Virus record (IMG/VR): IMGVR_UViG_3300046740_000334
Span: 1-41,952 of that record
Direction: 5' to 3' (one strand)
Length of the DNA: 41,952 bases
Source of the DNA: a virus
The translations under genes were made by a program, and so were the position numbers. The notes beneath the pieces were generated by a model. The model ran no database searches. It was given only the letters and a program-made list of their open reading frames with translations, and had not been told where the DNA came from. Positions 6,464 to 31,862 of this stretch are shown here, piece by piece (within the stretch, counting starts at the first letter, position 1; every line of letters begins with the position of its first letter).

Positions 6464-6630
6464 TGGAACCAAATTTTATAATTATTAGCCCTGCCTGGAA
6501 TGATGCCATCATGAGAGGTAAATCGATTTGCCCCTGTCATGCAGATTATCGTCATAAACGCACTTGGATTGAAAAGATTCGACTATTTTTCATTCTTCTT
6601 CAGTATCGGATCAAAAGATATGTGCCTTAA
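6463..6630 (+). CDS. Small hypothetical protein
   Basis: The ATG at 6463 overlaps the previous stop and encodes 55 residues. It has a CPCH motif near residue 25 and a basic hydrophobic C-terminus. The next gene starts ten bases before its stop. It is supported mainly by the tight stop-start packing. Confidence 0.5.
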   Translation: MEPNFIIISPAWNDAIMRGKSICPCHADYRHKRTWIEKIRLFFILLQYRIKRYVP

Positions 6631-6940
6631 CCAAGACGATACTCCAATCGACGATCAAATCATTCCCATCGCTGGCCGCGTTCTTATTAAATTACCGCCT
6701 AACGAAAAGAAAGAAGTGAAAGGACTTGTTCATCTCGAGCAGGATCTTGGTTATTGTCAGGAAGGGACAGTAATTGCGGTGGGTGCCGGACGCATGGGAA
6801 AGAAAGGAAACCGGGTTCCAATTGAATGCAAGATCGGGCAGAAGGTTTACATCACCAGATTTGCAGGAATCCAGGTCATGTTCGATGGCCAGCCCTGCCT
6901 CATGTGTTTTTCTGAAGATGTGCTGGCGGTGATGAATTGA
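6620..6940 (+). CDS. GroES-like co-chaperonin, copy 1
   Basis: The ATG at 6620 gives 106 residues matching the 10-kDa chaperonin fold along its length: IPIAGRVLIK at the first strand, a mobile-loop-like segment at about 28-44 with GLVHL, then GTVIAVGAG, a KIGQKVYI strand and the end EDVLAVMN. GroES caps GroEL; the GLV tripeptide corresponds to the GIV-type contact of the mobile loop. Phage co-chaperonins such as T4 gp31 help the host chaperonin fold the capsid protein. The frame continues upstream to 6539, but the family alignment begins near this ATG. Confidence 0.85.
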   Translation: MCLNQDDTPIDDQIIPIAGRVLIKLPPNEKKEVKGLVHLEQDLGYCQEGTVIAVGAGRMGKKGNRVPIECKIGQKVYITRFAGIQVMFDGQPCLMCFSEDVLAVMN

Positions 6941-7377
6941 CTGCGATAACCTCAATTGCATGGAGCAGGACTGACGCAGAAATTCGTGGTTTTAAGAAAC
7001 CGACAGGTGGGAATGATCTTTCTTATCCCGAAATAAATTCCATGAAATTGATGCCAGTCTCAGATTTCGTTTTGGTGGCCTGGGATCTCTGTCAGGATGA
7101 GATTAAGGTTGGCAAGCATACTTTGATCAGGCCAGAAACGCACAAGAAGATGCACTACGTTGGGACTGTAATCGCTTGCGGCCCCGATGTTGATGATGTC
7201 ATCCAGCCCGGACAGAGAATCGTGTTCGATCAATTCTCGAACTTCGAGAAATATTGGGATCCTGAGATTGGCCGCGTGGCCTTGGTTCAAGAATCCAAGC
7301 AAGGAAGTTTGTTCGCTATCGTTCCCAAAAGAATTAAAGTGGAAGGGAGCGAATCAGAATATAATTACGATGTTTAA
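6937..7377 (+). CDS. GroES-like co-chaperonin, copy 2
   Basis: A TTG start overlaps the stop of copy 1. Of 146 residues, about 37-136 follow the GroES plan: MPVSDFVLVAW, a mobile-loop-like stretch DEIKVGKHTLIRPE, VGTVIACGPDV, QPGQRIVFDQF, and a final strand. The N-terminal 35 residues are extra. It is diverged from copy 1, so this is an old duplication or two separate acquisitions. The pair might form a mixed ring, be used with different clients, or one might have become a virion part; the sequence does not decide this. Confidence 0.75.
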   Translation: MTAITSIAWSRTDAEIRGFKKPTGGNDLSYPEINSMKLMPVSDFVLVAWDLCQDEIKVGKHTLIRPETHKKMHYVGTVIACGPDVDDVIQPGQRIVFDQFSNFEKYWDPEIGRVALVQESKQGSLFAIVPKRIKVEGSESEYNYDV

Positions 7378-7743: not shown

Positions 7744-8412
7744 ATGAAAAGATTTTGTCTAGTTACCGCTTTACTTCTCGCCTTTCTTTCATTACCGAAA
7801 ATAGCCAAAGCAGGAGATTTGTACGCCGGAAGTGCTGGCGGACCTGATGATTACACGGTTCTCTATACCACCAACGGAGTAATTTCAACCACGACAGTTG
7901 TGGTTTCACTCAGTTCTCAGACTCTAGCCGGAACAAACATTTGGCCTCATCCTTTAAATGCCAGATCAATTATTGTCGATACGCTTCAAGTCGAAATCGA
8001 TAAACTTGCGGCGACAACGGCTGGTGTAAAAATTGGGGTCGTGAGAGAAGTCAATGATTCCAGTGGAACCGTGACTTGGTTTGATACCTGCAACAGCACC
8101 ATAAACGTATCCAACACAAACAACTTTCAGCTTGTTCAATATGCGAATGGTGGTTTAAATACTCGCGTAAATAATGTTGCTCAAGTCACCGGGGCAAATA
8201 CAGGAACGAATCCTTGGATTTTATCCAATGATTTAAACCAAGCCAGCGCATTTTACAGCAGCAGTTCAACGGCGGCTGGACTTAGATATCCTAGCGTTAT
8301 TTCTCAAACTCCCATCTATCGAATGCAGGTAGGCGATATCGTGTCGCAGATTATTACTTCGGCCGCTGCCAACATCGCTATTCAAATTCGTTATCACGTT
8401 GAGACCAATTAA
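7744..8412 (+). CDS. Exported beta-rich protein, possible virion decoration
   Basis: The ATG at 7744 has AAAGGAG upstream. The 222 residues begin with a classic Sec signal peptide: basic MKR, hydrophobic core LVTALLLAFLSL, and a KIAKA cleavage site at about residue 23. The mature part is rich in Thr, Ser, Val, Asn and Gly, with alternating beta patterns, and resembles phage surface or decoration proteins in style, but I recognise no family. It lies between the chaperonin genes and the portal, inside the head module. The export signal is unexpected here. Confidence 0.7.
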   Translation: MKRFCLVTALLLAFLSLPKIAKAGDLYAGSAGGPDDYTVLYTTNGVISTTTVVVSLSSQTLAGTNIWPHPLNARSIIVDTLQVEIDKLAATTAGVKIGVVREVNDSSGTVTWFDTCNSTINVSNTNNFQLVQYANGGLNTRVNNVAQVTGANTGTNPWILSNDLNQASAFYSSSSTAAGLRYPSVISQTPIYRMQVGDIVSQIITSAAANIAIQIRYHVETN

Positions 8413-9960: not shown

Positions 9961-10192
9961 TTTACACCGGGAGAAAATGATTCAATTCCTGAGAACTCTC
10001 ATGACATTTGGTGGCCCAAAAGACGCACCCACTGATGTCGATGCTTCTTTCATGCCGAACAGTCCCTTGGAAATGGGTTACAGCGCCAGGTTCGGTGGCA
10101 GCCCCGATTCTCAAGATCAACCGGATCTTGGGCAAGAGTTACGGGCCAAACAATTGAGGAAGAAGTTTCTGATGAGGCAATTTTCTAAATGA
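9947..10192 (+). CDS. Hypothetical protein
   Basis: The ATG at 9947 lies within the end of the previous gene and gives 81 residues. The helical start, the flexible Gly/Ser/Pro middle and the basic C-terminal helix mirror the upstream protein. No family is recognised. Confidence 0.6.
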   Translation: MNGDDLHREKMIQFLRTLMTFGGPKDAPTDVDASFMPNSPLEMGYSARFGGSPDSQDQPDLGQELRAKQLRKKFLMRQFSK

Positions 10193-10605
10193 AAAAGTTT
10201 CTTCTGACAGCCTTATTGGTTTCCGTCTCTATCCCAAATTCTTCACTCACCCCAGGCAAGATCAACCCCAATCTCACCAAGAAAGTAATTTGTGCCAAGG
10301 AATTTTCAACCGAGAACTATCGAACGGTTAAGGATTCGCAAAAGAAAAAGATTTATTCTGAATACGGGATTCCCTACAAAGACCACTCTCTTTATGAAGT
10401 CGATCACTTAATCAGCCTGGAATTGGGCGGTTCAAATGATAATGTGAATCTTTGGCCACAACCGTATCCAGAAGCGAGGTGGAAGGACACGATAGAGAAC
10501 TATCTCCACAGAGCCGTGTGCAAAGACGAGATGAATTTGAAAGAAGCGCAACGCGCAGTCGTTAGTGATTGGTACAAAATTTACCAAGGTAGAAAAAACA
10601 AATGA
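10189..10605 (+). CDS. Exported HNH-type nuclease-like protein
   Basis: These 138 residues begin with a Sec-type leader (MKKFLLTALLVSVSIP). The mature part has YEVDHLISLELGGSNDNVNLW at about residues 66-86, then a KD-x-x-EN-x-L helix and VCKDEMNLKEAQ. This is the layout of a widespread bacterial and viral HNH-like secreted family: DH supplies the first His, NLW the Asn region. Two Cys outside the core could form a disulfide after export. It lies directly before the portal, overlapping its start. Role unknown; acting on DNA outside the cytoplasm or on incoming DNA are options. Confidence 0.7.
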   Translation: MKKFLLTALLVSVSIPNSSLTPGKINPNLTKKVICAKEFSTENYRTVKDSQKKKIYSEYGIPYKDHSLYEVDHLISLELGGSNDNVNLWPQPYPEARWKDTIENYLHRAVCKDEMNLKEAQRAVVSDWYKIYQGRKNK

Positions 10606-12692
10606 ACGAACTCGATATAGTTGCCGATACCGCTGAAGCAAAGATTTCCAAATCCCCCGTGTCTTTAGCCGATCAGTCGCGGCAGAAACTTGGGGAATTG
10701 CTTGATCTCAATGATGAGCAAAAGAGCAGGATCAAAACCTTCCTAAAAGAACAGATCAAGAATTGGCTTACAGATACCGCCGATCTTCACCGCCGGCTTC
10801 AGGATGATAATGATTTGGTTGAAGGAATCATCATGGAGACGGATTTCCCATGGGTGGATTGCTGCAATATCCATTCTCCGATCACTGAAATATACATGGA
10901 CGGTTACGGATCCATTATCAAACGTTCAGTTTTAGGGGCTGGCAATATCTGGGTCGCTGAGGCTGAAGTGGATGAATTGATGGACATGACAGCCGATATC
11001 GAAGAAATGATGAATTTTAAGGCCAGGAACGAATGGAATATTGAACACGGAATCAGGAATGTGATCTGGCCCACGGATCGGGATGGGCTTGGTGTTATCC
11101 AATGTCCCTATGTCGAGGAATATGAACGGTCAGACGACATCGTGTTGTTGACCAACGAACAAGATTTCCTAAATGAATTTCCAAGTCCTGAAGATGCGGG
11201 GATTTCCGAAGAGGAATGGTTTAACCTCGCCGAACTCTCTAAGCAAGCCTCTGATGAATTCCCCGTTGAAGTTCCGATCACTGCCGATAAACAAACCTAT
11301 GCTGGCCCCAAAGCTGAAATTGTAGAAGCGGTTGATTTCGTTACCTTCCCCGCCTGGGTTGCAGACATCAAAACCAAATCTTGTCGTGGTTACGGGAAAC
11401 GGTTTACTGCTCACATTGAAGAGATTCGTGAAAAAGCAGAGAACAAAGTCTTTTATAAGGACGTGGCAAAAAGCGTCATCAATGGAAATGCAGTCGCTAA
11501 AGCCAGTTCCTATATCCAAGCCAAGGATGAAATCGTTGGAATTAAACGCACCACGAACAAAGACGAACGCGATCTCTATGAATTGGTGATCAAAGGCAGA
11601 CTTGATGAAGGTGGAGAGATTAAAAAGTTACTCGTCACCTATTCCTATGAAGATGATCAGTTATTGGGTTGCATGGATTATATTTATCGCGTTGATTTTT
11701 ACGCTCTCTTCAGGATCGATGAAAGGCCAAACCAACTCTTCGGTAAGAATATTCCCGCCAAAACCAGAGATCTTAACGATCTCTCAGATACACTCATCAA
11801 CCAAGAAGTGAACACACGGACCATTTCCACTGTCCCAATATTCATGGGGCAGAAAGACATGAAGGAAGAGTTGGACCCTGAACTTCAGCAGAATAAGATT
11901 AAACCGGGGATGATTATTTGGTTATCGAATTTCGATTCCTTCACTCAATTCAAGATTCAACCCACGGATCTCGGTGAAAACGCGAATCTTCAGGAACGGT
12001 TGATGAGGATCTTGGATATGTATTTGGGGATGCCGGCTTCTCTCTTTGCCGGTGGCGTTCCCAGCGGAGACCCATCCGCACCTGGGAACAAAACCGCATC
12101 CTTAATTAATCAAGGCAATCTGAGGATGGAAGATCCAATTTCTACGTTCAGATATGGCGTCGAGGAATTGGGGAATATCTGCCTCTCCCATATGTATCAA
12201 TTCGGACCCCCTATCATTCAATTTAAGACAACCAATGATGATGGAACCCAGATCAAGACCATCCACAAAAAGTTCTTGCGTAAAAACATCAAACTCAAAA
12301 TGAATGGGATCACGGTTTTAGATAATCCGGATGCGGAGATGCAGAAACAATTCCAGCTTTACACTGTCCTCATGACCAATCCTGAATTCGCTCAGAATCC
12401 GCAGGCTCAAAACGAGGTATTGAAAGATGCCTTAGTTAAAGGGCGCGTGAATGGGCGGGATCGATATCTGCCTTCGCCGGAAGAAATCCAACAGCAGCAA
12501 GTTGATACGCAAAAGAAAGCCATGCTTCAAATTGCCGCCCAAAAACAAGCGCAAGATCAACAGGCACAGGAAGAGCAAGTGAAGACCAATCTTGCTAAGA
12601 TCAAACAAGCTATGACGATCAAAAAAACTGCGCAAGATCTAGCTGAAAACAATCTCGATCTTGCCCCTACAAATGGAGCGGCACCTGTATGA
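10602..12692 (+). CDS. Portal protein
   Basis: This 696-residue protein fits the large podovirus-type portals in size, position (after terminase, before scaffold and capsid) and style. The first 60 residues are helical; the middle is mixed with DTDFPWVD-like segments; at about residues 400-520 there is a run with LPASLF-like and GNKTASLINQGN stretches typical of portal crown and stem regions; the last 90 residues are a Gln/Ala/Lys coiled coil. It forms the dodecameric vertex ring through which DNA passes and to which terminase and adaptor bind. No signal peptide. Confidence 0.85.
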   Translation: MNELDIVADTAEAKISKSPVSLADQSRQKLGELLDLNDEQKSRIKTFLKEQIKNWLTDTADLHRRLQDDNDLVEGIIMETDFPWVDCCNIHSPITEIYMDGYGSIIKRSVLGAGNIWVAEAEVDELMDMTADIEEMMNFKARNEWNIEHGIRNVIWPTDRDGLGVIQCPYVEEYERSDDIVLLTNEQDFLNEFPSPEDAGISEEEWFNLAELSKQASDEFPVEVPITADKQTYAGPKAEIVEAVDFVTFPAWVADIKTKSCRGYGKRFTAHIEEIREKAENKVFYKDVAKSVINGNAVAKASSYIQAKDEIVGIKRTTNKDERDLYELVIKGRLDEGGEIKKLLVTYSYEDDQLLGCMDYIYRVDFYALFRIDERPNQLFGKNIPAKTRDLNDLSDTLINQEVNTRTISTVPIFMGQKDMKEELDPELQQNKIKPGMIIWLSNFDSFTQFKIQPTDLGENANLQERLMRILDMYLGMPASLFAGGVPSGDPSAPGNKTASLINQGNLRMEDPISTFRYGVEELGNICLSHMYQFGPPIIQFKTTNDDGTQIKTIHKKFLRKNIKLKMNGITVLDNPDAEMQKQFQLYTVLMTNPEFAQNPQAQNEVLKDALVKGRVNGRDRYLPSPEEIQQQQVDTQKKAMLQIAAQKQAQDQQAQEEQVKTNLAKIKQAMTIKKTAQDLAENNLDLAPTNGAAPV

Positions 12693-13367: not shown

Positions 13368-14201
13368 ATGGAAGATATGGAACGCGGTGAACGAGGCGGA
13401 GTCGTCCTCGATGGTGGAGAAGGAACTGAGGAAAAGGGGGCTATCGATGCCGCTATTGATCAGACCAATAAGGAAGCTAACGAAATTGTCGATGAGTCGG
13501 GCGGAGCAACCGATCTTAACGCCGGAACAGAAGTATCTGAAGATGGAAAAGATGCTGGCGAAACAGAAGGTGAGGTTGTTGAAGGCAGCGAAAGCCCAGG
13601 GACGAAAGTCAATCCTGAGTTAGCGGCTTTCAAAGAAGAGATCAAGGCTGAGCTTGCAAAGCTGGCACCGGTCGCACCTGCGGCTGAAGTCAAACCTCTG
13701 ACCGAAGAACAATGGGGAAAACTCGAAGAAGATTGGGGTCAACCTCGCCAGACAATCCAACGCATCACCAACCAAAATGTTCAGGTTGTACGGAAACTCA
13801 CCGAATACATCGATTCCAGATTCGCCAAGCTTGAAGTGGGCGATACCATTCAGGCGGTATCAAAAGAAGCTCTCTACACTGATGCTCCCCGGTATCAAAA
13901 AGAGATAAGAGAATTTATTCAAGACTACGATCCCAAGCATTGGTCGAATCCAGAACTCATCAAAAGAGCCGTTATTTATGCGCGTGGTCTCAATGCGAAT
14001 GCGAATTTACAGAAGGTTCGAACTGATACCGAAAAGAACAAAAAGATTGCTGGACCAGCTCGACCATCAAGCCCAAGTGGTGGTATAAAAAGAACGACGA
14101 TGCCGGCATTAAACGGTGCGCATAGAGAGGCCGCAAACTTAATGGGATCTGAAGGCGAATACAATAAATTCCGTACTCGTCCGAGTCGGCAAATTGAGTA
14201 G
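13368..14201 (+). CDS. Probable scaffolding protein
   Basis: These 277 residues start behind a CAAGGAG site. Residues 1-85 are highly acidic and low in complexity (Glu/Gly/Asp), 85-180 contain an Ala/Glu coiled coil, and the C-terminus is basic (about 215-277). That charge split and the position between portal and capsid are typical of internal scaffolding proteins, which guide capsid assembly and leave before packaging. No protease domain is seen. Confidence 0.7.
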   Translation: MEDMERGERGGVVLDGGEGTEEKGAIDAAIDQTNKEANEIVDESGGATDLNAGTEVSEDGKDAGETEGEVVEGSESPGTKVNPELAAFKEEIKAELAKLAPVAPAAEVKPLTEEQWGKLEEDWGQPRQTIQRITNQNVQVVRKLTEYIDSRFAKLEVGDTIQAVSKEALYTDAPRYQKEIREFIQDYDPKHWSNPELIKRAVIYARGLNANANLQKVRTDTEKNKKIAGPARPSSPSGGIKRTTMPALNGAHREAANLMGSEGEYNKFRTRPSRQIE

Positions 14202-15702: not shown

Positions 15703-16596
15703 ATGATTACTACTGGGAACTGGCAAGACGCTCTTGAGCCGATTGCCATAAAGAATGCAGCTCTCGGATTTCGAGAAAAACCGATGGAAAGGGATCTTCT
15801 TTTCACGGTTAAAAAGTCAAAGAAGTTGGTTGAGACTTATTTGGAGCTTGGAGACATCGGAGCCTTCGGATCTTTTAGCGGAGATCTGGCTTATGACGAT
15901 TCCGCTCAGGGCTACAAAATGACGATCACTCAAGATGAACTTGCCAAAGGCATGAAGATTCAGCGCAAGTTCGTGGAGACGGATCAGATCGATGTCGTGG
16001 AAGGACTTCCCAAACTCATTGGTTTGGCAGCTCGCCGGAAGATGTTGCGCGATACCTTTGCCTTCCTCAACAACGCCTTCAATACAGCCATGACAACGAT
16101 TGATGGTTTGCAATTGTGCAGTACCGCCCATACCTCAAATCAGGATGGGGTCTCGACAACGCAATCAAATCGTGGAACCACGGCTTTCTCCGAGCCAGCC
16201 GTTGAAGCTCGGCGCCAAGCCATGAAAGCGTTCATGAGCAACCGCGATCAGCTCATCGAAGTCAACCCGGATATGCTCATCGTTCCTCGTGGCCTCGAAT
16301 CAGCGGCTTACGAACTCATCAAATCCAGTGGAAAAGTGAATACCGCGAACAACAACCGCAACTTCCACATGGGTAAATATAAGCTCTTGGTTTCGGATAT
16401 TCTCGACGATGCCAACAACTTCTTCCTCGCGGATTCCGAACTCTTGAAGCAATCGAATAAGTGGAACAACGTGGTACCGTTTGAATTCGGCCAGGCTCGA
16501 GATTTCGATGGTCTTAACGCGAAATACTACGGCTATATGTTCTACGGTTTCGGAACCACGGAATGGCGTGGAATTGACGGATCCGAAGTCGCCTAA
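15703..16596 (+). CDS. Major capsid protein (Mu gpT-like, HK97 fold)
   Basis: The 297-residue protein has the strongest ribosome binding site of the region (AAAGGAGG). Hallmarks are the extended N-terminus, KGMKIQRKFVETD, a long helix around the RRKMLRDTFAFLNNAF segment, the TTIDGLQLCSTAHTS loop, and the C-terminal beta/helix part NPDMLIVPRGLE...LLVSDILDDANNFFL...EW, which resemble Mu-type major head subunits. It forms the icosahedral shell. There is no signal peptide and no obvious protease-cleaved delta domain; a separate scaffold lies upstream. Confidence 0.9.
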   Translation: MITTGNWQDALEPIAIKNAALGFREKPMERDLLFTVKKSKKLVETYLELGDIGAFGSFSGDLAYDDSAQGYKMTITQDELAKGMKIQRKFVETDQIDVVEGLPKLIGLAARRKMLRDTFAFLNNAFNTAMTTIDGLQLCSTAHTSNQDGVSTTQSNRGTTAFSEPAVEARRQAMKAFMSNRDQLIEVNPDMLIVPRGLESAAYELIKSSGKVNTANNNRNFHMGKYKLLVSDILDDANNFFLADSELLKQSNKWNNVVPFEFGQARDFDGLNAKYYGYMFYGFGTTEWRGIDGSEVA

Positions 16597-16623: not shown

Positions 16624-17181
16624 ATGAGTGCCTCTTACAGCAGACAGGATCGGGTTTTATCGGTTCGAGAACGAGAGAAGTTTCGTAATGAGATCAAGGA
16701 TAAAGAGAGAGCCTTGCAGGGACATTTGGTGATCCCGAAAATGAATGGGACAGGGCCGGAAGGGATGTCGATTCGGAGGCAGGGACGCTGGAACGGTTTC
16801 ATGGATCCCAATATTCAGGAAGATGCGGGAATGTTAAATGCTCAGATCCGACATCTTAAAAGGAAGCTTGATTCTGGATCTCCGCGAAGTCTTTCTCGAA
16901 AAGAGCGAAGTGTTCTTGAAAAAGAAGTGGCTGAAGATCGGGAGTTTTTCAAAAAGAATATGGTTTCAACGAAGCTCTACAATCAGCCATCAGTTTTTCA
17001 TCGTGGGGATAGAATCGAACAGAATCCTCAATTCGGGAAGGCAACGAAAGCTGTTTATGACAAAGAGGTTGCAAACATCGAGTTTCAAAAACGAGCGAAT
17101 CGATTCAAGAACAACATGAGAGAACTTGATCCTGAAAACCCGGATGCGTCAAACATTGAGAAATTTAGACCGAAGAAATAG
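16624..17181 (+). CDS. Hypothetical head-region protein
   Basis: These 185 residues follow the capsid gene with an AAGGAGAG site. They are basic and helical with many Arg and Lys, and Asn/Met/Pro-containing loops such as RRQGRWNGFMDP. Possible roles include head-tail joining or internal structure, judged only from position. No family is recognised. Confidence 0.65.
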   Translation: MSASYSRQDRVLSVREREKFRNEIKDKERALQGHLVIPKMNGTGPEGMSIRRQGRWNGFMDPNIQEDAGMLNAQIRHLKRKLDSGSPRSLSRKERSVLEKEVAEDREFFKKNMVSTKLYNQPSVFHRGDRIEQNPQFGKATKAVYDKEVANIEFQKRANRFKNNMRELDPENPDASNIEKFRPKK

Positions 17182-17191
17182 GAGAACTTAC

Positions 17192-17842
17192 ATGAAAAAG
17201 AAATATTTAATTTTGGTTGGGCTATTGATGGGCCTTTCCATTCCTGGAATAGCGGCAGTCGTTGAACCCGCTAACACCACGAATTTCAATCGCATCATGC
17301 TTGACGAAAACAAGATCTACAATTCCAGTGGATCCCTCGTATTCGATATTGGTTTTGGAACGAGTGTTCTCAATAATTCCCTTGCTTTTGGAGATAACAA
17401 CAACGTCGCTTCTGTGACGCTGCCCTCCACGACAACGGCGAGTTCTTTCAGCGTCAAGGTTCCATTCTTTAATGGATCTGGGGCGGCAACAGCCGTGGGT
17501 CAGGTGATATTGTCATCTTCGACGGCGGCTCTTACAGGTGGAAATGCCTACGGGACTTCGGCTGCGGTTTTGGCTACCACAACCGTCCTTGGAATCTCAG
17601 ATGGAGTTTATGCCGCTGGTGCTAAGGGTTGGATGACCATCGCCGGATATTGTGCTGTTTTAACTACTGGCACAGTCAACGCTGGTGATATCTTGGTTTC
17701 AACGGCTGGAAGCGCGGGATCAGGTGCGGCTGGTTATGCTGGCGTGACCACGGGAACAGAAGTTGTTGGTACAAAAATTGGGAAAGCGCTTTTGCCTGGA
17801 ACAGCGGCTGGCGGCTTAACCATGACTTTAATCGCTCCGTAA
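17192..17842 (+). CDS. Signal-peptide-bearing decoration-type protein
   Basis: The ATG at 17192, behind AGGAGAACT, gives 216 residues. Residues 1-22 form a Sec leader (MKKK, then LILVGLLMGLSIP and GIAA). The mature protein is Gly/Ala/Thr/Ser rich. Its C-terminal 130 residues follow a G-x-V-x ... AGTKGWMTIAGYC ... AGDILVST ... GTKIGKALLPG plan typical of beta-barrel capsid stabilisers (DUF2190-like in style). The inferred role is head decoration. A leader on such a protein is odd for a tailed phage. Confidence 0.65.
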   Translation: MKKKYLILVGLLMGLSIPGIAAVVEPANTTNFNRIMLDENKIYNSSGSLVFDIGFGTSVLNNSLAFGDNNNVASVTLPSTTTASSFSVKVPFFNGSGAATAVGQVILSSSTAALTGGNAYGTSAAVLATTTVLGISDGVYAAGAKGWMTIAGYCAVLTTGTVNAGDILVSTAGSAGSGAAGYAGVTTGTEVVGTKIGKALLPGTAAGGLTMTLIAP

Positions 17843-17860: not shown

Positions 17861-18613
17861 ATGAAACGATTCATTTTCATATTAGGTGTTCTGTCCCTAT
17901 GCGCTAGAGCCAGTTTCAGTTTAACTTTGGCCGAGGCTCGCACAGAAGTTCGTAGGCTCGTTAAAGATACGGCCACTTCTTCCACGCTTCAACGATATTC
18001 GGATACTGTTCTCCTCAGTTTTCTGAATCAATCGCAGCGGGAAGTCGTTACTGGATCTTTGGCACTTGAAAGCACGACCTTCTACGTTCTCAGTGCCGGG
18101 ACAACGTATTATTCCCTGCCCACCGATGTCATCAACGTCAAATTCGTTAAATTCAGGGATTCGGCAGCGCATACCCGCAAGCTCCAACAGGTCAGTTACA
18201 AAGCGACATTGGAAGGGAATCCCGATTACGAAAGATTGACGGGGCCTCCCTTTCAATATTTCGTTCGTCCCTCAACCACAGCAACGACATCTGATATTAC
18301 CTACCTTCCCATCCCCACCACGTCTTCGACAGGTACAGTCACGATCACTTATTTCAAACAAGCGACGGCTTTGGCTTCAGACAGCGATGTGCTTTTGGAT
18401 GGAGATGTGACCTTACTTCCCTATCATGAAACCGTTGTATTCGGAACCGTCGCTAAAATTAAGTTGATAGAAGGCGATCCCTCTGCCGCAACTTATATTC
18501 AGCTTCAGCAATCGGGACTTCAGGCCATGAATTCAAGGCTCGGGGAAATGCCCGATTACAATCCTGGTATGTCTGGTGGGAGTCCTGCTGTTAGTGCGGG
18601 GACTTCTCGGTGA
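17861..18613 (+). CDS. Adaptor (head-to-tail connector) protein with signal peptide
   Basis: Of 250 residues, 1-20 are a Sec-type leader (MKRFIFILGVLSLCARASFS). Directly after it starts LTLAEARTEVRRLVKDT, the usual N-terminus of podovirus adaptor proteins, followed by FLNQSQREV and a beta domain with YYSLPTDVINV. Adaptors form a ring under the portal and hold the tail. In family members I know, the protein begins at the TLAEAR helix, so the leader looks added. The ATG lacks a clear ribosome site, but no later good start exists. Confidence 0.8.
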   Translation: MKRFIFILGVLSLCARASFSLTLAEARTEVRRLVKDTATSSTLQRYSDTVLLSFLNQSQREVVTGSLALESTTFYVLSAGTTYYSLPTDVINVKFVKFRDSAAHTRKLQQVSYKATLEGNPDYERLTGPPFQYFVRPSTTATTSDITYLPIPTTSSTGTVTITYFKQATALASDSDVLLDGDVTLLPYHETVVFGTVAKIKLIEGDPSAATYIQLQQSGLQAMNSRLGEMPDYNPGMSGGSPAVSAGTSR

Positions 18614-21330
18614 AAAAGCTTTTACCTTTCCTTCTATTATTCTTCGCAGGTCCCGTTAAAGCCCAGACTCTTGCGATCAATCAATTCGGCGGCATCAACA
18701 CCGACGATTCCCCACTCACCCTTGAAAACGGGCAGTCCCCAGATAGTAGGAATTTACTCACTGACGATGGGCCAGGTGTTCAAGGTCGAAAAGGATTCGT
18801 TCGTTATTCCACGGAACCATCTTCTGGTCTTTGGGAATTCCCACTTTCAAATGGAACTCGATATTTAATTTCAAGTTCAGGCGGAAATCTTAAAGCCACA
18901 ACCGACGGAACGTTTTCAACATTCATTGCCACTGTTCCTACAGATCGAGTCACCGCCGCCGCCGTTCTTGGAGACAAGTTTTTCTTTTCCGATACCTTGA
19001 ACGGGCTTAGATATTGGAATGGGGCCAGCGTCACTTCCTCATCCAATACCATGACCTTCGACAAATTGGTGACGTTCAAGGGCCGATTGGTGGGCGCTGG
19101 AAAATCTGGGAGTGAGCGCATTCTTTTCCTGTCAAAGTATTTGGATGGAACGAATTGGACTTTGGTTACAAATCCATCCGATGATGACCCCTCCCAAATC
19201 ACTGTATCAGGCTCACTGGATGAAACGATTCAAGCCCTTTATTCCACGTTTCAGGATAAGCTCATCTATTTCAAAAAGAATAGTTTCGGGGGTTTAAGTG
19301 GAAGCCGGCGCAGTAATTTTGCTCTTCGTGTTTATTCTGATTCTATTGGAGTTTCATCGGTAGAAACAATCAGGGATTGCGATGGGAGGCTGCGTTGGCT
19401 TGGGAATAATCGGAAGGTTTATCAATTCGATGGTGCCACTTTCGGGATTATCTCGGAAGATATCGACAACATCTTCGCCAATGTTTCTCAGGGAGACGCA
19501 AATTCGAGATCCATTACCTTAACCACGGATTCAGATTTCGCACCCGGCACGTTTTCACCCACTGATTATATTTCCACTTCAGTTATTTCTGGATCCGTGG
19601 CCCTGGCGACTTCACCTGCAACGATTTTCGTTGACAGTATTTCCACGGATTTCGCGGCTGGAACTCTCACCAATTTATCGACCACGGTAATTAATGGATC
19701 CCTTGTTTTGTCCACCTTCACCAGCTCTGGATTCACAAATCTCGTCATCACCGATACAGGTTCACTCCCCGCCCCCAATAACGATATTTTTCTGGCCCAA
19801 AGTTTTACGACACCATCCACTTACACGAAAATAAATACGGCTACTTTTTTCCTTCAATCAACTGATGGGGGTGGATGCAGTCCCGTTGTTAGTCTTTATA
19901 CTTTTAATGCCGATATTAATTTGGGAACACTTTTAGCAACCGGAAGCATAATAAATTTATTTGGTACACCAGGAAGCCGAACTTCGACATTTTCGAGTTC
20001 CCCTATTTTATCCCCCAGCACAAAATACGTTTTAAGAATAGCGTCGTGCGCATCACCAAACTATGGGCGAATTGCTTACAAAGATCCGGGGACATATGCG
20101 GGTGGGGATTTCGGTAATTCTGGGGGTGCATTTGGTTCCGGCGATTCCTCGATGACGGTAACATACACAGCCGCAGCCGTGTCTCGAACCAGTGGATCCA
20201 TTGTTTCTCAGACATTCGATGTTGGAATCACGACGAATTCGTATATGTGGAAGTGGGGTAATTTAACTGCGAACGGAACCATTCCCACGGGCAGTTCGAT
20301 TACTTATCAAACACAAACCTCATCCGATGCCACGCATTGGGCGGCCTCTGTTGCAGCTTCGACTGGATCCACTCCTACGTCTACGGTCCAACGCTATATT
20401 CGATACATAGCCACCTTTACCGCATCCGATCAAACCGTGACACCGCAATTGGATGATGTCACGGTTCAGACCACGGATAAACGAAGACCGGCTGGGTTCT
20501 ATATTTCGCCGGCAATAGATTTCGGATTGAGCGTGAGTTCAGTGGGAACATTCGCTCCCACTTCGCAGACGCTTGGCGGATCCATTACTTATCAATTCCA
20601 AACTTCAACGAATTCAAGCACGTCTCTTTTTCTTTCTACGGCATGGGTGACGGTTCTCCCGGGCGCACTCCCGGTTGTCCCAGCATTCCGATACGCTGCT
20701 GTTCGATCAAGTTTTTCGGCAACATCAGGAACAGAAACGCTGTCACTGGATGTTCTCCAATTTAATTTCACGGAAGGATCCAATATCCGCGCCTCATCTT
20801 CCTACATCAACAGCAGGTATTGGCTCGGACTCGCCATTTCCTCTACGTCCAATAACGGTATCCTCGTTTACGACAAACAAAATCAATGGCAACGCTATGA
20901 TGCCTATGTCCCGGAAGCGATGACCATTTACAATTCGAGGATGTATGTGGGTAACACGAACGGGGTTTTCTTAAGTGAGTCCGGTTATTCTGATAATGGG
21001 ACACCAATCACAGGCTATTACACCACCAAAACCTTGACGCCGGCGGGCTACGATTATTTTGGTCAGTACGATCATCTTTATCTCACCACGGATAATAGCG
21101 ATGATGTCCTAACTCCAACATTCCAGATCAATAACAATGCCACGGACAATTCTTTCGGAGCCACGGCGATGAATGGAAGTCTGGGGATTCAGAATTTGAA
21201 GTACCCATTTTCTATGGCAGAAGTTCAACAAGGAAAATTTATCAACATGAAATGGAGCGTGACAGGTTCGAGCTTTTGGCGAATTCTACAAGGCGATCTC
21301 TATTTCTTACCCAGCGCGACACCGGATTAA
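18610..21330 (+). CDS. Tail nozzle / stabilisation protein with signal peptide
   Basis: A GTG at 18610, behind GGGGAC and overlapping the adaptor stop, gives 906 residues. Residues 1-19 are a Sec leader ending GPVKA. The mature part begins NQFGGINTDDSPLTLENGQ, typical of T7 gp12/P22 gp10-type nozzles, then a beta-propeller-like run (about 60-290), Ser/Thr-rich beta repeats (about 290-690) and a C-terminal part with QWQRYDAYVPEAMTIYNSRM that closes the propeller. It forms the distal end of the short tail. An insertion-like Ser/Thr-rich middle makes it larger than T7 gp12. Confidence 0.8.
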   Translation: MKKLLPFLLLFFAGPVKAQTLAINQFGGINTDDSPLTLENGQSPDSRNLLTDDGPGVQGRKGFVRYSTEPSSGLWEFPLSNGTRYLISSSGGNLKATTDGTFSTFIATVPTDRVTAAAVLGDKFFFSDTLNGLRYWNGASVTSSSNTMTFDKLVTFKGRLVGAGKSGSERILFLSKYLDGTNWTLVTNPSDDDPSQITVSGSLDETIQALYSTFQDKLIYFKKNSFGGLSGSRRSNFALRVYSDSIGVSSVETIRDCDGRLRWLGNNRKVYQFDGATFGIISEDIDNIFANVSQGDANSRSITLTTDSDFAPGTFSPTDYISTSVISGSVALATSPATIFVDSISTDFAAGTLTNLSTTVINGSLVLSTFTSSGFTNLVITDTGSLPAPNNDIFLAQSFTTPSTYTKINTATFFLQSTDGGGCSPVVSLYTFNADINLGTLLATGSIINLFGTPGSRTSTFSSSPILSPSTKYVLRIASCASPNYGRIAYKDPGTYAGGDFGNSGGAFGSGDSSMTVTYTAAAVSRTSGSIVSQTFDVGITTNSYMWKWGNLTANGTIPTGSSITYQTQTSSDATHWAASVAASTGSTPTSTVQRYIRYIATFTASDQTVTPQLDDVTVQTTDKRRPAGFYISPAIDFGLSVSSVGTFAPTSQTLGGSITYQFQTSTNSSTSLFLSTAWVTVLPGALPVVPAFRYAAVRSSFSATSGTETLSLDVLQFNFTEGSNIRASSSYINSRYWLGLAISSTSNNGILVYDKQNQWQRYDAYVPEAMTIYNSRMYVGNTNGVFLSESGYSDNGTPITGYYTTKTLTPAGYDYFGQYDHLYLTTDNSDDVLTPTFQINNNATDNSFGATAMNGSLGIQNLKYPFSMAEVQQGKFINMKWSVTGSSFWRILQGDLYFLPSATPD

Positions 21331-22890: not shown

Positions 22891-25800
22891 TTGCCGACTC
22901 TCATAAAAAAAAAGGAATTCGACTTCAATTCTCTTCCTGACCAGCAAGATCAGGGAGTCGATTTCAGTTCACTTCCCGATCAGGCTGAACAGAAACCAGA
23001 TTTCAGTTCACTCCCAGATAGAAGTGAATCCACGCCATCTTTGGCTTCTCGCGCTATTGATGCTTTGAATTTATCGAATCTTCCTTCCTTAAAAGAAGTT
23101 GGCCAGTCAGCAATTGATTATTTAAAGCCATCCCCTGAACATGAGCGAGTCCTTCGTGGTATCGCTGCGACAGGCGCCCAAGCTGCTGGTGAGGTTACTG
23201 GTCCTTCTGTTTTCCCAATTCCAGCTGAAACGGGTGCTGCATTTCAGGAATTGGCACGTCGAATTGCCCCGGAAAGGATGACGGCTGTTCAGAAATTCAT
23301 GGTTGGTCAGCAAGATACACCTGAAACTCGCGCCAAATTGATCGATATGATGGCTCCGACAGAGGAAGAAATTCTTCATAAAGCCTACGCCGAAAAGCAC
23401 ATTCCTGTTTTTGATTTGGCTAAACGCCTTGGGGCCAGCATCGTTTCTCAGGTTGTGCCATTGACACCGGTTCAGGTTGGCATGACTGCGGCCACGTTTG
23501 CTGATCCCATCATGAAGATTGGGGGAGTGACTCAAGATTTCCTTCTTAATAAGAACTTGAATTTAAAAATCACACCTGAAACAATAGGCGATTTCTATAA
23601 ATTCGGAAGAGAAAGGCTTGATCCGCAAACCTACGAAATTCTTCTAAAAACGCCCAAAGAAGAATTGATTCGAGTCCTGAAATCAGGCGAAGATCTTGCT
23701 GTGAAATTAAAAGTACCAAGGTTTGGCGGCGGCCCCGCGCCGACCGCACCCGCAATTGAGCCTTTAAAGCCGGGAATTCCAACTGAAACCGCGAATCTTC
23801 CGACCGCCCCGGAGCCAAAACCCATATTTTCACCGAAAGCGAGCGATTTCCTGCGTGAAAATCATCCTGCCATGGCCAAGATCGTTGATTCCTTACCGGA
23901 CACCATTGATTCAGAATTGCTTAAAAAGACCGTGGTTGATGCCACGACTCAGGCAAACATCGCCACAATCAATGGTGGCAGCCCACAGGAAGCTCAGGCA
24001 GCGGCTTTGCGGCATTTAGGAGAACGACTTCAATCCGGGGAACTGGCGCCTAAAATCGAGCCTGAGAAGGCTTTAAAGGTGGATACCCAGGGGATCCCAA
24101 TCCGTAAACCAAACGCCGTGGTGACTCAGGTGGATTTGGGGGAGGGCCAGAAGCTACCGATCACTCACAGTCAAGTTTTAAATGAGGCCAAGGCACTTCA
24201 GCAGGATGCTCTCAATTCCCGCGAGATCAGCCCACTTGAACAATTCGTAAAGAGAAATGGCGGCGTTAAAGGTTACAAGGGAGGCGTTGAAGGCGAAGAG
24301 TTTAAAGGAGTTCCGGTTCATTTGCGCGGCACCCAAGCGGTCGATGAAATGGCGCAGATGGCCTACCATCGGGGATTACTGGATGAGCCGTCCGGGGATT
24401 TGCTGAGGGAGAAACTTAAGGAGATTAAGGCCAGGGGACCAGAACCTAAACTTGGAGATTTCTACGATCAGGCTGTGCGGAACCTGGAATATTACGCCCA
24501 GGAAGGGGTGCAGATACCGATACAGCCTGAAAATGTTCCACGTGGAGAGTTTTCAAATCTTGAGCAAGCCAAAGCCGCAGCACAAGATGTTTTGAGAACC
24601 AATAAGATTGATAATCAAGTAATAGTGAAGATTGTCGATCAAATCGCCGTGGATGACCAAGCCTTCAAGAAAGGCTACGGACAAGCCTATAAACCCAGCG
24701 AATTCGAGATTCAGGGCGCTACCTATACCCCAGGAATGAAGGATCGGATCAAATCCGTGATTGAATTGGCCAATGGCGCGGATCGCGGGGTCGGGCGGCA
24801 TGAAGCCTTCCACGCAGTTTCCAACATCCTTTTGGATCCAACCGAGCAGAAGATTATTACGGATCGATATGGGGATATGGAGAAAGCCGCCGATGCTTTC
24901 GCTGAATACCGCAACACTGGACAAGCCGAGACCCCTCTTTTAGAACGGATCTTCCAGAAGATCAAAGACTTCCTTGACCGAATCAAGAACTATTTCGATT
25001 CCAAGAACTTCAAAACGGCAGAGGATTTGTTTAAAGATATCGAGGAAGGGAAATTGAAGGGGGGTGGCGCCGCCCGGGAAGGTCCACAGTATAAGGCGGC
25101 TGAAGTCATGGATCTTAAGGATAAGGCACTTGAACAATTTGGGAAAACCAAAGATTTCGAGAAAGCCGGTTTCATCTTCCCCGATGGCCAGATGGTGGAT
25201 TTCACCAAAGGCGGGAAAGACAGGATCTTCATGCACCAGGATATTTCAAGGGTCTATGAAGGGACGGGCGAAGTTGACGATCCTTATTCCTTACTTCAAA
25301 AGTTCATGGAAGATACTGGCGCGGTTCGGCTGAGCCAATACGATGACGTAGGTGGTCATCGTGTCTCAATCGAGGCCCATGGTCCTATGTCTCACGATCA
25401 AATTAAAGAGATTGGGGAATATTTTGATACGCATCCGATGGATATGTCCACATTTGAAGTCATGAACAGCATCGGGCGCAGTGTTCGCAGTGCCGGGATC
25501 AAGGAACCAACCTCTGAAGATGTGGCTCGATTCTTTAATGGAAGTTCTCAATATAAAGCCGTTGAAAACAAACCTCCTTTCTTTTCGATGGTGGAGAAAA
25601 CCATCAACGATAAGATGCCGACACGATCTTCTGGCGATCAGATTATGGGGTTACTCCGAAATTCTCCTGGCGTAAAACAAGAGGAATTGGACTGGATCGG
25701 ACTCCCTGAATTCCTGAAAGGAAAAACCTCAATCACCAAAGAAGAAGTCCAGAATTTCATCAAAGAGAACAATGTGCAGGTGCAAGAAGTGATGAAGGGT

Positions 25801-28800
25801 CAACCAGGTGTAAACAGAGCTAAAGATTTTAAAGTGAAACAATTACCAGATGGAAGATATGGAATTATAGAGCCAAAATTCGGTAGTCAAGTTGCCAGAA
25901 TGTTTTTAACAAAAGAAGGGGCTGAAGCAGAATTGAAAAGGCTCAATACATATTCCAATGAACCTACTAAGTTCGAGAAATACACCCTCCCCGGCGGCGA
26001 GAACTACCGGGAGCTTTTGCTGACGACGCCAAAATTGCCAGCAGAAAAATCTGTTCATGAGCAAGGATTAGAAAGAACTATTTCAGATGTTTTAAAAAGA
26101 CGTGATGCAATTGGTGATAGCAAGAATCCACAATGGAAAAAACTAGATGCTCAACTCGGAGATCTCCAAGATCAAAGATTGGCGCTCGAAAAGGGGCGGG
26201 AAAGAATAACGAGTAAAGAGAATTTTACTTCTTCTCACTTCCCCGAACCCAACATCCTCTCCCACGTCCGATTCAATGATCGAGTAGACGCCAACGGAAA
26301 GAAGACTCTTTTCATAGAGGAAATCCAGAGTGATTGGCATCAGAAAGGCAGGACGATGGGATACACAGAACCGCCTCGTGATCCACAACGCATGGCTGAT
26401 CTTTCAAAAGAGAAGACCAAATTGGAAGATGTCATCGATGCTGGTAATCAAGGTCTTGCTAAATTAAGGGGAGGAACAAAGGGGTATTCTGAAAAGAAGA
26501 CGGCTCTCCATAATGAAATAAACGCTGCCGCCGACAGGTTGGTTGACATCGATGATGAATTAAAAATCCTCGAAGGCAAAAAAGGGGTGCCCAACGCCCC
26601 CTTCAAAAAAACCTGGCATGAACTCTCTCTTAAACGAATGCTCCGCTACGCCGCCGAGAACGGTTATGACCAGATTGCGTGGACGACGGGGGAGCAACAG
26701 GCGGAGCGATATGACTTAAGCCATCAAGTCGATTCGATCAGGTATCGAAAGACTGGTGACGATTTATACGAGATGTCAGCCGTCAAAGACGGTAACAGTG
26801 TTATCGTCGAGAGAGATAAAACGGGCGCTCAACTTAAAGATATTGTCGGGAAAGACGTGTCTGACAAAATAATTAATGGTGAAGGGAAAAAGATTGCGGG
26901 GCCAGGAAGCGTCACTGAACTTTCTGGTGTCGATCTCAAAGTCGGCGGCGAAGGCATGAAAGGTTTCTACGATCAGATGATTCCTTCGTTTCTGAATAGA
27001 TATTCTAAAAAATGGGGTGGGAGAGTTGGGGAAACGGAATTTCCAGGAGAAATGCTTCGTCCACAAATCCGGGTTGGCGATCAATGGTTTGCCGTTAATG
27101 GGCTGATGAATTATTTTGAATCGCATGGCATTGATCCGAAATCATTGAAGATAGGCCAAGAACTTCCAGAAATGGGGAAAATAGAGGATATGGTAAGGGG
27201 GCGTGATTTTTCTTATAAAACCCATTCCCTCGATATCACACCGGCCATGAAAGAATCCGTGATCCACGAAGGCCAACCACTTTATAAAGCCATCCAAAAA
27301 GATTCAGCGATGGATTTAAAACAATCTGCGAATGAAATCAGAGATCTTGTAAATCCGAGTAAATCAGCGCCCCTGGCGGCGGCTATTACCAGAGAACAGC
27401 TCGGAAAAATGGCGCGAAGTTTTGATAAGGCTGAGGCGGCTTTGGGCAAAGCCCATTCCTTTTTTGAAGGCCAATCGGTCGCAAACAACATCGATTTCAT
27501 CGACAAGATGGAGCATGGCCAGCCCCAACCAACCCCAGAACTTAATCAGATCGCGACACAACTTCGTGATCTTTTTGATTCTAAACGCAATGAAATCCAG
27601 GCTCTAGGAACTGGAAAACTCAAGAATTTCATCGAGAACTATTTCCCTCATATTTGGGATCAAGGCGAGAAACAAGTTTCAAAAGCTGCCCAGGTTATGT
27701 CGAAGCGGCCATTTGAAGGTGGAAAATCTTTCCTTAAAAAACGAACGATAGAAACATTTAAGCAAGGCATTGAAGCTGGATTGACGCCAGCCTCTTACAA
27801 TCCCATCGATCAAACATTTCTCAAGATCCGAGAAATGGATAAGTACATCATGGCCCACAAAACCTTAAATGAATTTAAAGAAGAAGGTCTATCTCAATTC
27901 GTGAAAATTGGAAGTAAGCCGCCGGAAGGATGGGTCAAGATCAACGACAATATTTCCACGGTGATGCGGCCTATTACAAACGAAGAAGGGAAGATGGAAG
28001 GGTTGGCGATTGTCGGTCATTACTACGCCCAGCCCGACGCCGCCCGAATCATCAACAATTATCTCTCGCCCGGCCTTCAGAAATCAGAAGTGTACCGAGC
28101 CTATCGCTATCTCGGAAACGCAATCAACCAATTCCAGCTTGGATTATCCGCTTTCCATTTGGGATTCACATCAGTCGACTCGATGGTTTCTAAATTCGCT
28201 TTGGCTTTGAATCAATTGGCTTTGGGTCATCCCATGAAAGCCATTAAAGCAGTTCTTCAAACTCCATTTGCTCCGGTCGAAAATGTTTTGCGCGGAGATA
28301 AATTGCTCAAAGCCTGGAAGGGTCAAGGATCAACAAAGGATGAAATCTTGGCAGAAGCGATGGCGACGGGCGGTGGTCGAGCCAAGATGGATCAGTTCTA
28401 TGCAACTAAAGCTTATGATCAGATGAAGAAATATTTCCAGGCTGGAAAATATGTGAAAGGAATATTTCAAGCGCCTTTTGCTGCCATTGAAGCCAGTTCC
28501 AAACCTATTCTTGAATATATCGTTCCTCGTCAAAAGCTTGGAGTATTCGCTGATATTATGAAAATGGAACTCGAACACAATCCCAACATGAGCCACGAAG
28601 AATTTCGAATGATTAAACAGAAAGCATGGGATAGTGTTGATAATCGCATGGGCCAACTTGTTTACGATAATCTTTTCTGGAATCGGACCTTCAAAGATTT
28701 GCTCATGGGATCTGTAAGATCCGTGGGATGGAATCTTGGAACCATCAGAGAAATATTGGGAGGAATTGGGGATTTCTTTAAATTTGGTCGTGGACCGAAA

Positions 28801-29652
28801 GGAAGAGGTGCCAATCTTTCTTATCGGAGTGCTTATGTGATAGCCCTTCCAGTTGTGGCGGGAATATTAGGGGCCATTTATCAATATCTCAGGACCGGGA
28901 AAGGACCGCAAGAATTAAAGGATTATTATTTCCCAAGAACTGGAAGCCTCGATGAAAATGGAGATCCAGTCCGTGTTTCTATTCCTTCTTACATGAAGGA
29001 TCTTTATCACTACACGCAGCATCCAGTTACAACCGTCACCAATAAACTCAGCCCATTGATCGGCATGGTCGCGCAGATGCTCAACAACAAAGATTATTTC
29101 GGGACCAAGATTCGAAATGAGGACGATCCTTTGGTGAAGCAAGTCGCGGGTGAAGCCCAATATATTCTTAAGCAAATGATTCCGTTTGGGATTCGGAATG
29201 CACAAAAGAATATGCAGAACGACAAAGAATTGAGGGACATCGTTGAACCATTCATTGGGATCACGCCGGCGCCTTACGATATCAATCAAACGAAAGCCGA
29301 AACATTGGCCCACAGAATATCCGCACAGAAAATGCCTATCGGTGGGCGCACACAAGAGCAAGCGGAACACAGCAAAGTTTTAAGAGATTTCTCCAAACGA
29401 TTGAAATTGAACGATCCCAATGTTCGCGCTGAAATGTTTCAGGCTATTCGTGATCGAAAAATAACACCTATGCAGGTAGCCAAGATCAATCGTGAGTCAA
29501 ATTTGACTCCACTTCAACGACAAGTCCTTCATTTTTCCGCAGCCGAAATAAAAAAGGTTTACGATTTGGCGACACCGGAAGAGAAAAAGCAGATCGAAAA
29601 CATGATGAAGGCAAAGATCGCTCGATCTAAGACGTTGGTGGAACAGCCGTGA
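22891..29652 (+). CDS. Large polyvalent virion protein with zincin motif
   Basis: From a TTG start this 2253-residue protein is the largest in the genome. Residues 11-49 hold three 13-residue DFSSLPDQ repeats. At 637-641 HEAFH gives an HExxH zinc site inside RHEAFHAVSN, as in zincin domains of phage polyvalent proteins. A conserved phage domain with EIQSDWHQ (about 1143-1150) and AWTTGEQQAERYDLS (about 1262) spans roughly 1010-1390. A hydrophobic segment VIALPVVAGILGAIYQYL lies near 1985-2002, and the C-terminus is helical. It is probably packaged and ejected with DNA; the zincin may cut host or virion protein. No signal peptide. Confidence 0.85.
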   Translation: MPTLIKKKEFDFNSLPDQQDQGVDFSSLPDQAEQKPDFSSLPDRSESTPSLASRAIDALNLSNLPSLKEVGQSAIDYLKPSPEHERVLRGIAATGAQAAGEVTGPSVFPIPAETGAAFQELARRIAPERMTAVQKFMVGQQDTPETRAKLIDMMAPTEEEILHKAYAEKHIPVFDLAKRLGASIVSQVVPLTPVQVGMTAATFADPIMKIGGVTQDFLLNKNLNLKITPETIGDFYKFGRERLDPQTYEILLKTPKEELIRVLKSGEDLAVKLKVPRFGGGPAPTAPAIEPLKPGIPTETANLPTAPEPKPIFSPKASDFLRENHPAMAKIVDSLPDTIDSELLKKTVVDATTQANIATINGGSPQEAQAAALRHLGERLQSGELAPKIEPEKALKVDTQGIPIRKPNAVVTQVDLGEGQKLPITHSQVLNEAKALQQDALNSREISPLEQFVKRNGGVKGYKGGVEGEEFKGVPVHLRGTQAVDEMAQMAYHRGLLDEPSGDLLREKLKEIKARGPEPKLGDFYDQAVRNLEYYAQEGVQIPIQPENVPRGEFSNLEQAKAAAQDVLRTNKIDNQVIVKIVDQIAVDDQAFKKGYGQAYKPSEFEIQGATYTPGMKDRIKSVIELANGADRGVGRHEAFHAVSNILLDPTEQKIITDRYGDMEKAADAFAEYRNTGQAETPLLERIFQKIKDFLDRIKNYFDSKNFKTAEDLFKDIEEGKLKGGGAAREGPQYKAAEVMDLKDKALEQFGKTKDFEKAGFIFPDGQMVDFTKGGKDRIFMHQDISRVYEGTGEVDDPYSLLQKFMEDTGAVRLSQYDDVGGHRVSIEAHGPMSHDQIKEIGEYFDTHPMDMSTFEVMNSIGRSVRSAGIKEPTSEDVARFFNGSSQYKAVENKPPFFSMVEKTINDKMPTRSSGDQIMGLLRNSPGVKQEELDWIGLPEFLKGKTSITKEEVQNFIKENNVQVQEVMKGQPGVNRAKDFKVKQLPDGRYGIIEPKFGSQVARMFLTKEGAEAELKRLNTYSNEPTKFEKYTLPGGENYRELLLTTPKLPAEKSVHEQGLERTISDVLKRRDAIGDSKNPQWKKLDAQLGDLQDQRLALEKGRERITSKENFTSSHFPEPNILSHVRFNDRVDANGKKTLFIEEIQSDWHQKGRTMGYTEPPRDPQRMADLSKEKTKLEDVIDAGNQGLAKLRGGTKGYSEKKTALHNEINAAADRLVDIDDELKILEGKKGVPNAPFKKTWHELSLKRMLRYAAENGYDQIAWTTGEQQAERYDLSHQVDSIRYRKTGDDLYEMSAVKDGNSVIVERDKTGAQLKDIVGKDVSDKIINGEGKKIAGPGSVTELSGVDLKVGGEGMKGFYDQMIPSFLNRYSKKWGGRVGETEFPGEMLRPQIRVGDQWFAVNGLMNYFESHGIDPKSLKIGQELPEMGKIEDMVRGRDFSYKTHSLDITPAMKESVIHEGQPLYKAIQKDSAMDLKQSANEIRDLVNPSKSAPLAAAITREQLGKMARSFDKAEAALGKAHSFFEGQSVANNIDFIDKMEHGQPQPTPELNQIATQLRDLFDSKRNEIQALGTGKLKNFIENYFPHIWDQGEKQVSKAAQVMSKRPFEGGKSFLKKRTIETFKQGIEAGLTPASYNPIDQTFLKIREMDKYIMAHKTLNEFKEEGLSQFVKIGSKPPEGWVKINDNISTVMRPITNEEGKMEGLAIVGHYYAQPDAARIINNYLSPGLQKSEVYRAYRYLGNAINQFQLGLSAFHLGFTSVDSMVSKFALALNQLALGHPMKAIKAVLQTPFAPVENVLRGDKLLKAWKGQGSTKDEILAEAMATGGGRAKMDQFYATKAYDQMKKYFQAGKYVKGIFQAPFAAIEASSKPILEYIVPRQKLGVFADIMKMELEHNPNMSHEEFRMIKQKAWDSVDNRMGQLVYDNLFWNRTFKDLLMGSVRSVGWNLGTIREILGGIGDFFKFGRGPKGRGANLSYRSAYVIALPVVAGILGAIYQYLRTGKGPQELKDYYFPRTGSLDENGDPVRVSIPSYMKDLYHYTQHPVTTVTNKLSPLIGMVAQMLNNKDYFGTKIRNEDDPLVKQVAGEAQYILKQMIPFGIRNAQKNMQNDKELRDIVEPFIGITPAPYDINQTKAETLAHRISAQKMPIGGRTQEQAEHSKVLRDFSKRLKLNDPNVRAEMFQAIRDRKITPMQVAKINRESNLTPLQRQVLHFSAAEIKKVYDLATPEEKKQIENMMKAKIARSKTLVEQP
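22921..23037 (+). repeat. Three 13-residue DFSSLPDQ repeats
   Basis: Residues 11-23, 24-36 and 37-49 of the polyvalent protein each begin DF(N/S)SLPD and continue with a variable acidic/Gln tail. They form a short repeat at the N-terminus of this ejected-type protein. Such tags may target or tether the protein during assembly; this is inference. Confidence 0.8.
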
Positions 29653-31387: not shown

Positions 31388-31391
31388 TTCA

Positions 31392-31514
31392 ATGAAATGT
31401 ACCGAGTGCGAGGGGGAAATGGAAAAGAAAATTGACGAATCTCTCGGGACTTATTTTGAATGCCCACTTTGTGGACACACACTCGAAATATATTACAAAA
31501 GGAATCCATGTTAA
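31392..31514 (+). CDS. Zinc-ribbon microprotein
   Basis: An ATG at 31392 encodes 40 residues with CTEC near the start and CPLCGH later, a four-Cys zinc ribbon. Its stop overlaps the ATG of the peptidase gene at 31508. Function unknown. Confidence 0.6.
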   Translation: MKCTECEGEMEKKIDESLGTYFECPLCGHTLEIYYKRNPC

Positions 31515-31861: not shown

Positions 31862-31862
31862 T

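Follow-up and report, generated by a model that had tools for sequence, protein, structure and literature searches.

A head-to-tail adaptor preceded by a Sec-type leader

We found that the head-to-tail adaptor of a tailed phage starts with a Sec-type leader placed entirely ahead of its folded domain, and that such leaders recur across a clade of related phages on proteins of the tail, stopping abruptly short of the head and packaging proteins of the same genomes. The phage is represented by a DNA stretch of 41,952 nucleotides (positions 1 to 41,952 of IMG/VR virus record IMGVR_UViG_3300046740_000334), hereafter the window. The adaptor gene (17861-18613, + strand) is opened by an ATG at 17861 and encodes 250 amino acids. 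Pfam, fold and gene position agree that its product is an SU10/P22-gp4-type head-to-tail adaptor: it matched SU10_adaptor (PF24175) with 73.4 bits (4.5e-20, above the curated cut-off of 27) as well as phrog_399, and its gene lies between those of the capsid and the tail hub. An AlphaFold model built from ten aligned adaptors (overall pLDDT 70.7) retrieved with Foldseek the structures 9k09, 7z47 (SU10), 8zkk (VP1) and 8jov (GP4) at E 1e-8, the neck proteins resembling it by fold being those of cyanophage A4, SU10, VP1 and GP4.

The boundary between leader and fold was located in several ways. The PF24175 alignment begins at residue 22, which corresponds to profile position 2, so that the first 20-21 residues precede the domain. 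In the model, residues 1-19 have pLDDT <50 (except residue 5) and the folded domain starts from residues 21-23; the N-terminal alignment of adaptor homologues likewise leaves the leader outside the adaptor fold. We rejected the idea that it is a hydrophobic helix of this fold, as it is disordered in the model and precedes the domain. The initial annotation had set an exact join at TLAEAR; the leader does lie outside the fold, but the join falls at L21 and not at T22, and the predicted mature adaptor (17921-18613, + strand) begins LTLAEAR.

The leader itself, MKRFIFILGVLSLCARASFS (adaptor residues 1-20; 17861-17920, + strand), has a KR n-region, a 9-residue core with a mean hydropathy of 2.9, no acidic residues, and small residues at -3 and -1 before L21; an alternative cleavage-like site (ARA followed by S) occurs at 17. 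On a simple home-made scale, in which known E. coli leaders get 10.5-12.9 and controls behave, it scored 12.9, the same as E. coli OmpA. This score was reached by 7 of 5000 shuffled versions of the first 30 adaptor residues, and only 4 of 553 genes (0.7%) of related leaderless phages reached a score of 10. Form, score and shuffles thus bear out the complete 20-residue Sec leader that had been claimed, as far as sequence can tell; export and cleavage are what such a leader would predict.

The start codon was surveyed as well. An in-frame stop lies three codons upstream of the adaptor ATG, and the sole later start near the boundary is a TTG at codon 23 that lacks a Shine-Dalgarno sequence, in line with the earlier statement that no other good start exists. 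No Shine-Dalgarno sequence is visible before the window adaptor ATG; the leader starts of sister adaptors have AAGGAGG (G011), AGGAGG (G007) and AAGGAG (G016). In six related contigs (G011, G012, G015, G016, G019 and L144), codons 9-46 of the adaptor contain no in-frame start at all and, therefore, the leader has to be translated.

Distribution and turnover of the adaptor leader

The adaptor alone as query gave no relatives in viral contigs or GenBank phages. For this reason, sister phages were sought via the capsid protein and the terminase, and further adaptors were gathered using the adaptor alignment as query. We obtained 14 distinct leader-bearing adaptors from uncultured sister phages, all with the same boundary and with differing leader sequences: that of the window, two in tandem in G001, and those of G007, G010, G011, G012/G014, G015, G016, G019, G031, L141, L142 and L144. 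A tandem pair of adaptor genes with a leader on each is found at L002:12161-13623, and the GP4 neck also has two adaptor-type chains (8jov G and 2).

The fold, the operon place between capsid and tail hub, and the Pfam family are those of known SU10-type/P22 gp4-type adaptors (PF24175; 7z47, 8jov, 8zkk). However, the 58 homologous adaptor ORFs of other phages begin at the first helix or a few residues ahead of it, whereas the leader phages add a Sec-type leader of 20-24 residues. None of the 58 has a leader (top score 5.7), and the hydrophobic N-terminus that would have spoken for a part of the ordinary fold was seen in none of them; they include many near-copies, 39 remaining in the adaptor tree. 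The homologue of the cultured Vibrio phage VPMS1 begins MTRIAEILTRVRDSLADPNKERWTDARLV, at the point where leader-bearing adaptors have their first helix (compare L144). Phages with and without the leader both exist, in separate groups.

In the capsid tree, a 13-row clade (98/98) holds all leader phages except G031, and none of its rows is known to be leaderless. In the adaptor tree, based on domain columns only, two changes explain the leader distribution. Together, these trees indicate that the adaptor leader is an old trait. The initial annotation spoke of a leader grafted on to a normally leaderless adaptor; the addition to a normally leaderless protein holds, but it is old and clade-wide rather than a fresh graft. 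The leader phages are diverse, their major capsid proteins (MCP) being 32-71% identical to that of the window.

A basic n-region, a hydrophobic core and small -3/-1 residues characterise these leaders, with one subclade shifted by one residue. In three phages of this subclade, with capsid proteins 93-96% identical and adaptor domains 65-68% identical, only 4-6 of 20 leader residues are shared, while the basic start, core and small c-region are retained in each. In an automatic alignment, the -3/-1 rule holds exactly at the boundary in 8 of 8 adaptors outside this subclade (8/11 overall), and the three remaining adaptors satisfy it one residue earlier; among the tail hubs, 5 of 9 satisfy it in one register. 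An offset of +4 scored high too because the LTLA motif is conserved in the adaptor fold, so this result supports cleavage without proving it. Cysteine content and parity of the exported-looking proteins gave no clear sign that these proteins are adapted to an oxidising compartment.

Leaders on tail genes and their absence from head genes

The adaptor leader, described earlier as the single cleanest case of an export pattern, is real, although the adaptor is one member of a block of exported-looking tail proteins. The tail-hub gene has a GTG start that overlaps the adaptor stop and encodes the leader MKKLLPFLLLFFAGPVKA (18610-18663, + strand), followed by the predicted mature tail hub/nozzle (18664-21330, + strand). 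Its AF2 model contains an N-terminal beta-propeller (residues about 64-290, pLDDT about 75), the only part modelled with fair confidence in a model of pLDDT 46.7 that is poor outside the propeller; Foldseek matched it to the nozzle proteins of Pa223, Pam1, VP1, P22 (gp10) and Sf6 (gp8). Propeller and position directly after the adaptor are shared with P22 gp10-type hubs (8u10, 8eap; Pam1 7eeq; Pa223 9nwi), but all identified hubs of the leader phages add a Sec-type leader of 18-25 residues (33 in G010), which is absent in 16 other hub ORFs.

Just upstream of the adaptor, a protein that appears collar-like from its position (17192-17842, + strand) carries the leader MKKKYLILVGLLMGLSIPGIAA (17192-17257); its four sequence homologues (4/4) and its positional counterparts in other leader phages have leaders as well. 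Further downstream, a tail fibre (29649-31007, + strand; phrog_4492 tail fibre, 8e-41) has the leader MKKLITLGFILSVFSFCYA (29649-29705), and a leader is also present in G011 and G014. On these two proteins the leader is usual, not universal, in leader phages. Leaders also begin three proteins of no assigned role, MKRFCLVTALLLAFLSLPKIAKA (7744-8412, + strand; the G011 homologue likewise has one), MKKLFLLLLFAPLTVVA (32580-33044, + strand) and MKRILVFVGSLMFVSSGFCQ (33460-33900, + strand; starting at an internal ATG of ORF 33031), and a protein made of repeats of ~20 residues (YNVMENKYE...), MNRSTIALILILSLPVFAKA (34764-35090, + strand). A small protein at 10189-10605 has a leader-like N-terminus, MKKFLLTALLVSVSIPNSS, and weak likeness to non-specific endonucleases (PF13930, 0.012, below cut-off).

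Leaders are missing from the terminase large subunit (4671-6305, + strand; phrog_2, 1.5e-22; 0/19 homologues with leader), a scaffold-like protein named from its position (13368-14201, + strand; 0/9), the major capsid protein (15703-16596, + strand; phrog_371, 1.1e-20; 0/44) and a conserved protein encoded immediately upstream of the leader block (16624-17181, + strand; 0/30). The portal (10602-12692, + strand) is leaderless too; its PHROGs match in the window is weak (phrog_156, 0.0021), the assignment being firmer via homologues annotated as head-to-tail connecting proteins. Among 34 portal homologues, one scored 10 or more, from an internal start and in an outgroup, and no portal homologue of the leader clade has a leader. 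Two tandem GroES-like ORFs lie upstream of the portal (6539-7377), and in a relative, phage G028, a GroEL-like protein is encoded by 29931-31562 (orientation as analysed). Between hub and fibre there is a leaderless protein of 2253 amino acids (22891-29652, + strand), a putative ejection (internal virion) protein judging from its position and its lack of cysteine. This residue is absent from the protein and from four leader-phage homologues (1635-2862 amino acids), about 11,000 residues altogether, which would fit a protein ejected through the envelope.

Within the same genomes, leaders are present on 22 of 22 adaptor and hub genes and on 0 of 42 head and packaging genes (those of capsid, portal, terminase and scaffold, plus the conserved gene that follows the capsid gene). 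The split is complete, but its p-value of 1e-17 is too small because the genomes are related. Along the gene order the border is abrupt: portal, scaffold, capsid and conserved protein are leaderless; collar-like protein, adaptor and hub have leaders; the putative ejection proteins have none, and the fibre has one again. The same order and pattern recur independently in L142 and L144 up to and including the hub, and in L141 up to and including the adaptor, its contig ending there. In the more distant relatives G036, G028, G008, L049 and L051, leaders are confined to distal proteins, of which some are probably tail fibres; the trait is therefore graded, and tail parts may carry leaders in a wider range of phages than the neck does. 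In one such locus, L119 (G036:34000-48809), four successive large Sec-leader proteins, probably distal tail fibres, are encoded at G036 coordinates 37849-43632, and the adaptor and hub of this phage are leaderless.

A possible two-compartment assembly

From these leaders we infer Sec export, cleavage, the compartment of the tail parts and the timing of joining. On balance, we think it probable that these phages are short-tailed and P22-like and that they export their tail machine but keep their heads in the cytoplasm, the two meeting at an opening of the inner membrane. More tentatively, and with slightly less than even confidence, we propose a tailed-phage clade with a two-compartment virion, in which filled cytoplasmic heads and a Sec-exported, processed tail machine would be joined only at that opening. 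Portal, scaffold, capsid, terminase and ejection proteins would remain in the cytoplasm, where capsid assembly and filling would take place. Adaptor, hub, collar-like protein and tail fibre, synthesised with cleavable Sec leaders, would cross the inner membrane, have their leaders trimmed where the folds begin, and wait outside the cytoplasm until a holin breaches the inner membrane; filled heads would then come together with the tail parts, completing the virion.

In P22, gp4, gp10, gp26 and gp9 are added after head filling, and the ejection proteins enter the procapsid. This assembly order counts for the proposal, since the leader set corresponds to the proteins that P22 adds late, and the leaderless set to its procapsid. 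Export is further favoured by the retention of leader form while its letters turn over and by the Shine-Dalgarno sequences at several leader starts. The window encodes a leaderless M15-peptidase-like endolysin candidate (31460-31861, + strand; Peptidase_M15_3, 3e-4, just under the curated cut-off) and, adjoining it, a single-membrane-helix protein that is a holin candidate from its sequence and position (31839-32222, + strand). Canonical holins open micron-scale holes (PMC6116005), which would be wide enough for heads. Several points count against the proposal: the dodecameric adaptor must get to a portal that lies in the cytoplasm, the tail parts would be diluted if joining waited for the hole, the holin is no more than a candidate, and the partial -3/-1 fit of the hubs, the lack of a cysteine signal and the graded trait also weigh against it.

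Alternatively, the leaders might be uncut signal-anchor or signal-anchor-release (SAR) tethers holding the tail parts, bodies outward, in the inner membrane until the potential collapses at lysis and assembly follows. Phage endolysins with uncleaved SAR sequences are freed in this way on depolarisation (PMC6116005), and such tethers would time tail addition exactly. However, the adaptor cores are strongly hydrophobic (2.4-2.9), whereas a SAR helix is weakly so, and most adaptors have small -3/-1 residues at the fold start, as cleaved leaders do; we consider this reading unlikely, yet the most serious of the alternatives. It is improbable that the virion retains the hydrophobic N-termini and uses them at the next infection to drive its tail or channel into the host envelope, with no involvement of Sec. 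Short-tailed phages do need virion proteins to get through the envelope (PMC6116005), and the segment is present on several tail proteins. But adaptor, hub, collar-like protein and fibre all have it, its n-region is basic, its end resembles a signal-peptidase site, its sequence changes fast, it is disordered in the model, and the putative ejection proteins lack it.

Somewhat less probable still is that exported copies act in the host envelope, in receptor blocking or superinfection exclusion, and that virions use the share escaping export. Phages do export single proteins for such purposes, for instance T4 Spackle gp61.3, which is secreted to the periplasm with cleavage of its 22-residue leader (PMC7650644). 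Here, the entire tail set shows the trait, even an adaptor ring, for which an envelope role is implausible, and a leaderless product is impossible in the six contigs without an alternative start. The hosts could also have unusual internal membranes or envelopes, the leader directing tail proteins to a particular place on the membrane at which filled heads would dock, with release without bursting the cell. No leader-bearing neck was found in the genome contigs searched, as this would lead one to expect: the terminase search for hosts gave no match, and the MCP search found three distant loci only, all of them outside the leader clade, in MAGs of Alphaproteobacteria, Rhodospirillales and Bacillota; a hub could be identified at the Alphaproteobacteria and Bacillota loci, and a leader was seen on none of the necks. 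No tRNA was found in the window. Against such a site, the endolysin and holin candidates suggest ordinary lysis, and leaders span a wide phage diversity, which makes several hosts probable; we give this explanation marginally less credence than an envelope role. An artefact is very improbable. The invisible Shine-Dalgarno sequence of the window adaptor would favour it, but the 14 diverged adaptors, the complete split between neck and head genes and the six contigs without an alternative start contradict wrong start codons or chance hydrophobic N-termini.

Relation to known systems

Textbook tailed-phage assembly is entirely cytoplasmic. Virion proteins with leaders that are assembled after membrane insertion exist in filamentous phages (Ff coat proteins). 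However, Ff is a non-tailed ssDNA phage extruded through the membrane, whereas the leader phages are capsid phages with a packaged head, in which no secretin-type exit was seen. T4 Spackle gp61.3 is a leader-bearing protein of a tailed phage, but a single tail-lysozyme inhibitor and not a structural neck part. The endolysin Lys44 of fOg44 and SAR endolysins are Sec-exported before lysis (PMC6116005), but they are lysis enzymes and not parts of the virion. In the open-access literature, we found neither a tailed phage reported to have Sec leaders on its neck proteins nor a description of two-compartment virion assembly in tailed phages. For annotation, these leaders are a warning that a signal peptide does not exclude a virion protein. 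If the proposed assembly is true, some phages would use the host Sec machinery to keep head and tail building apart, a separation that would perhaps ensure that tails are added only to filled heads, or let tail fibres fold outside the cytoplasm.
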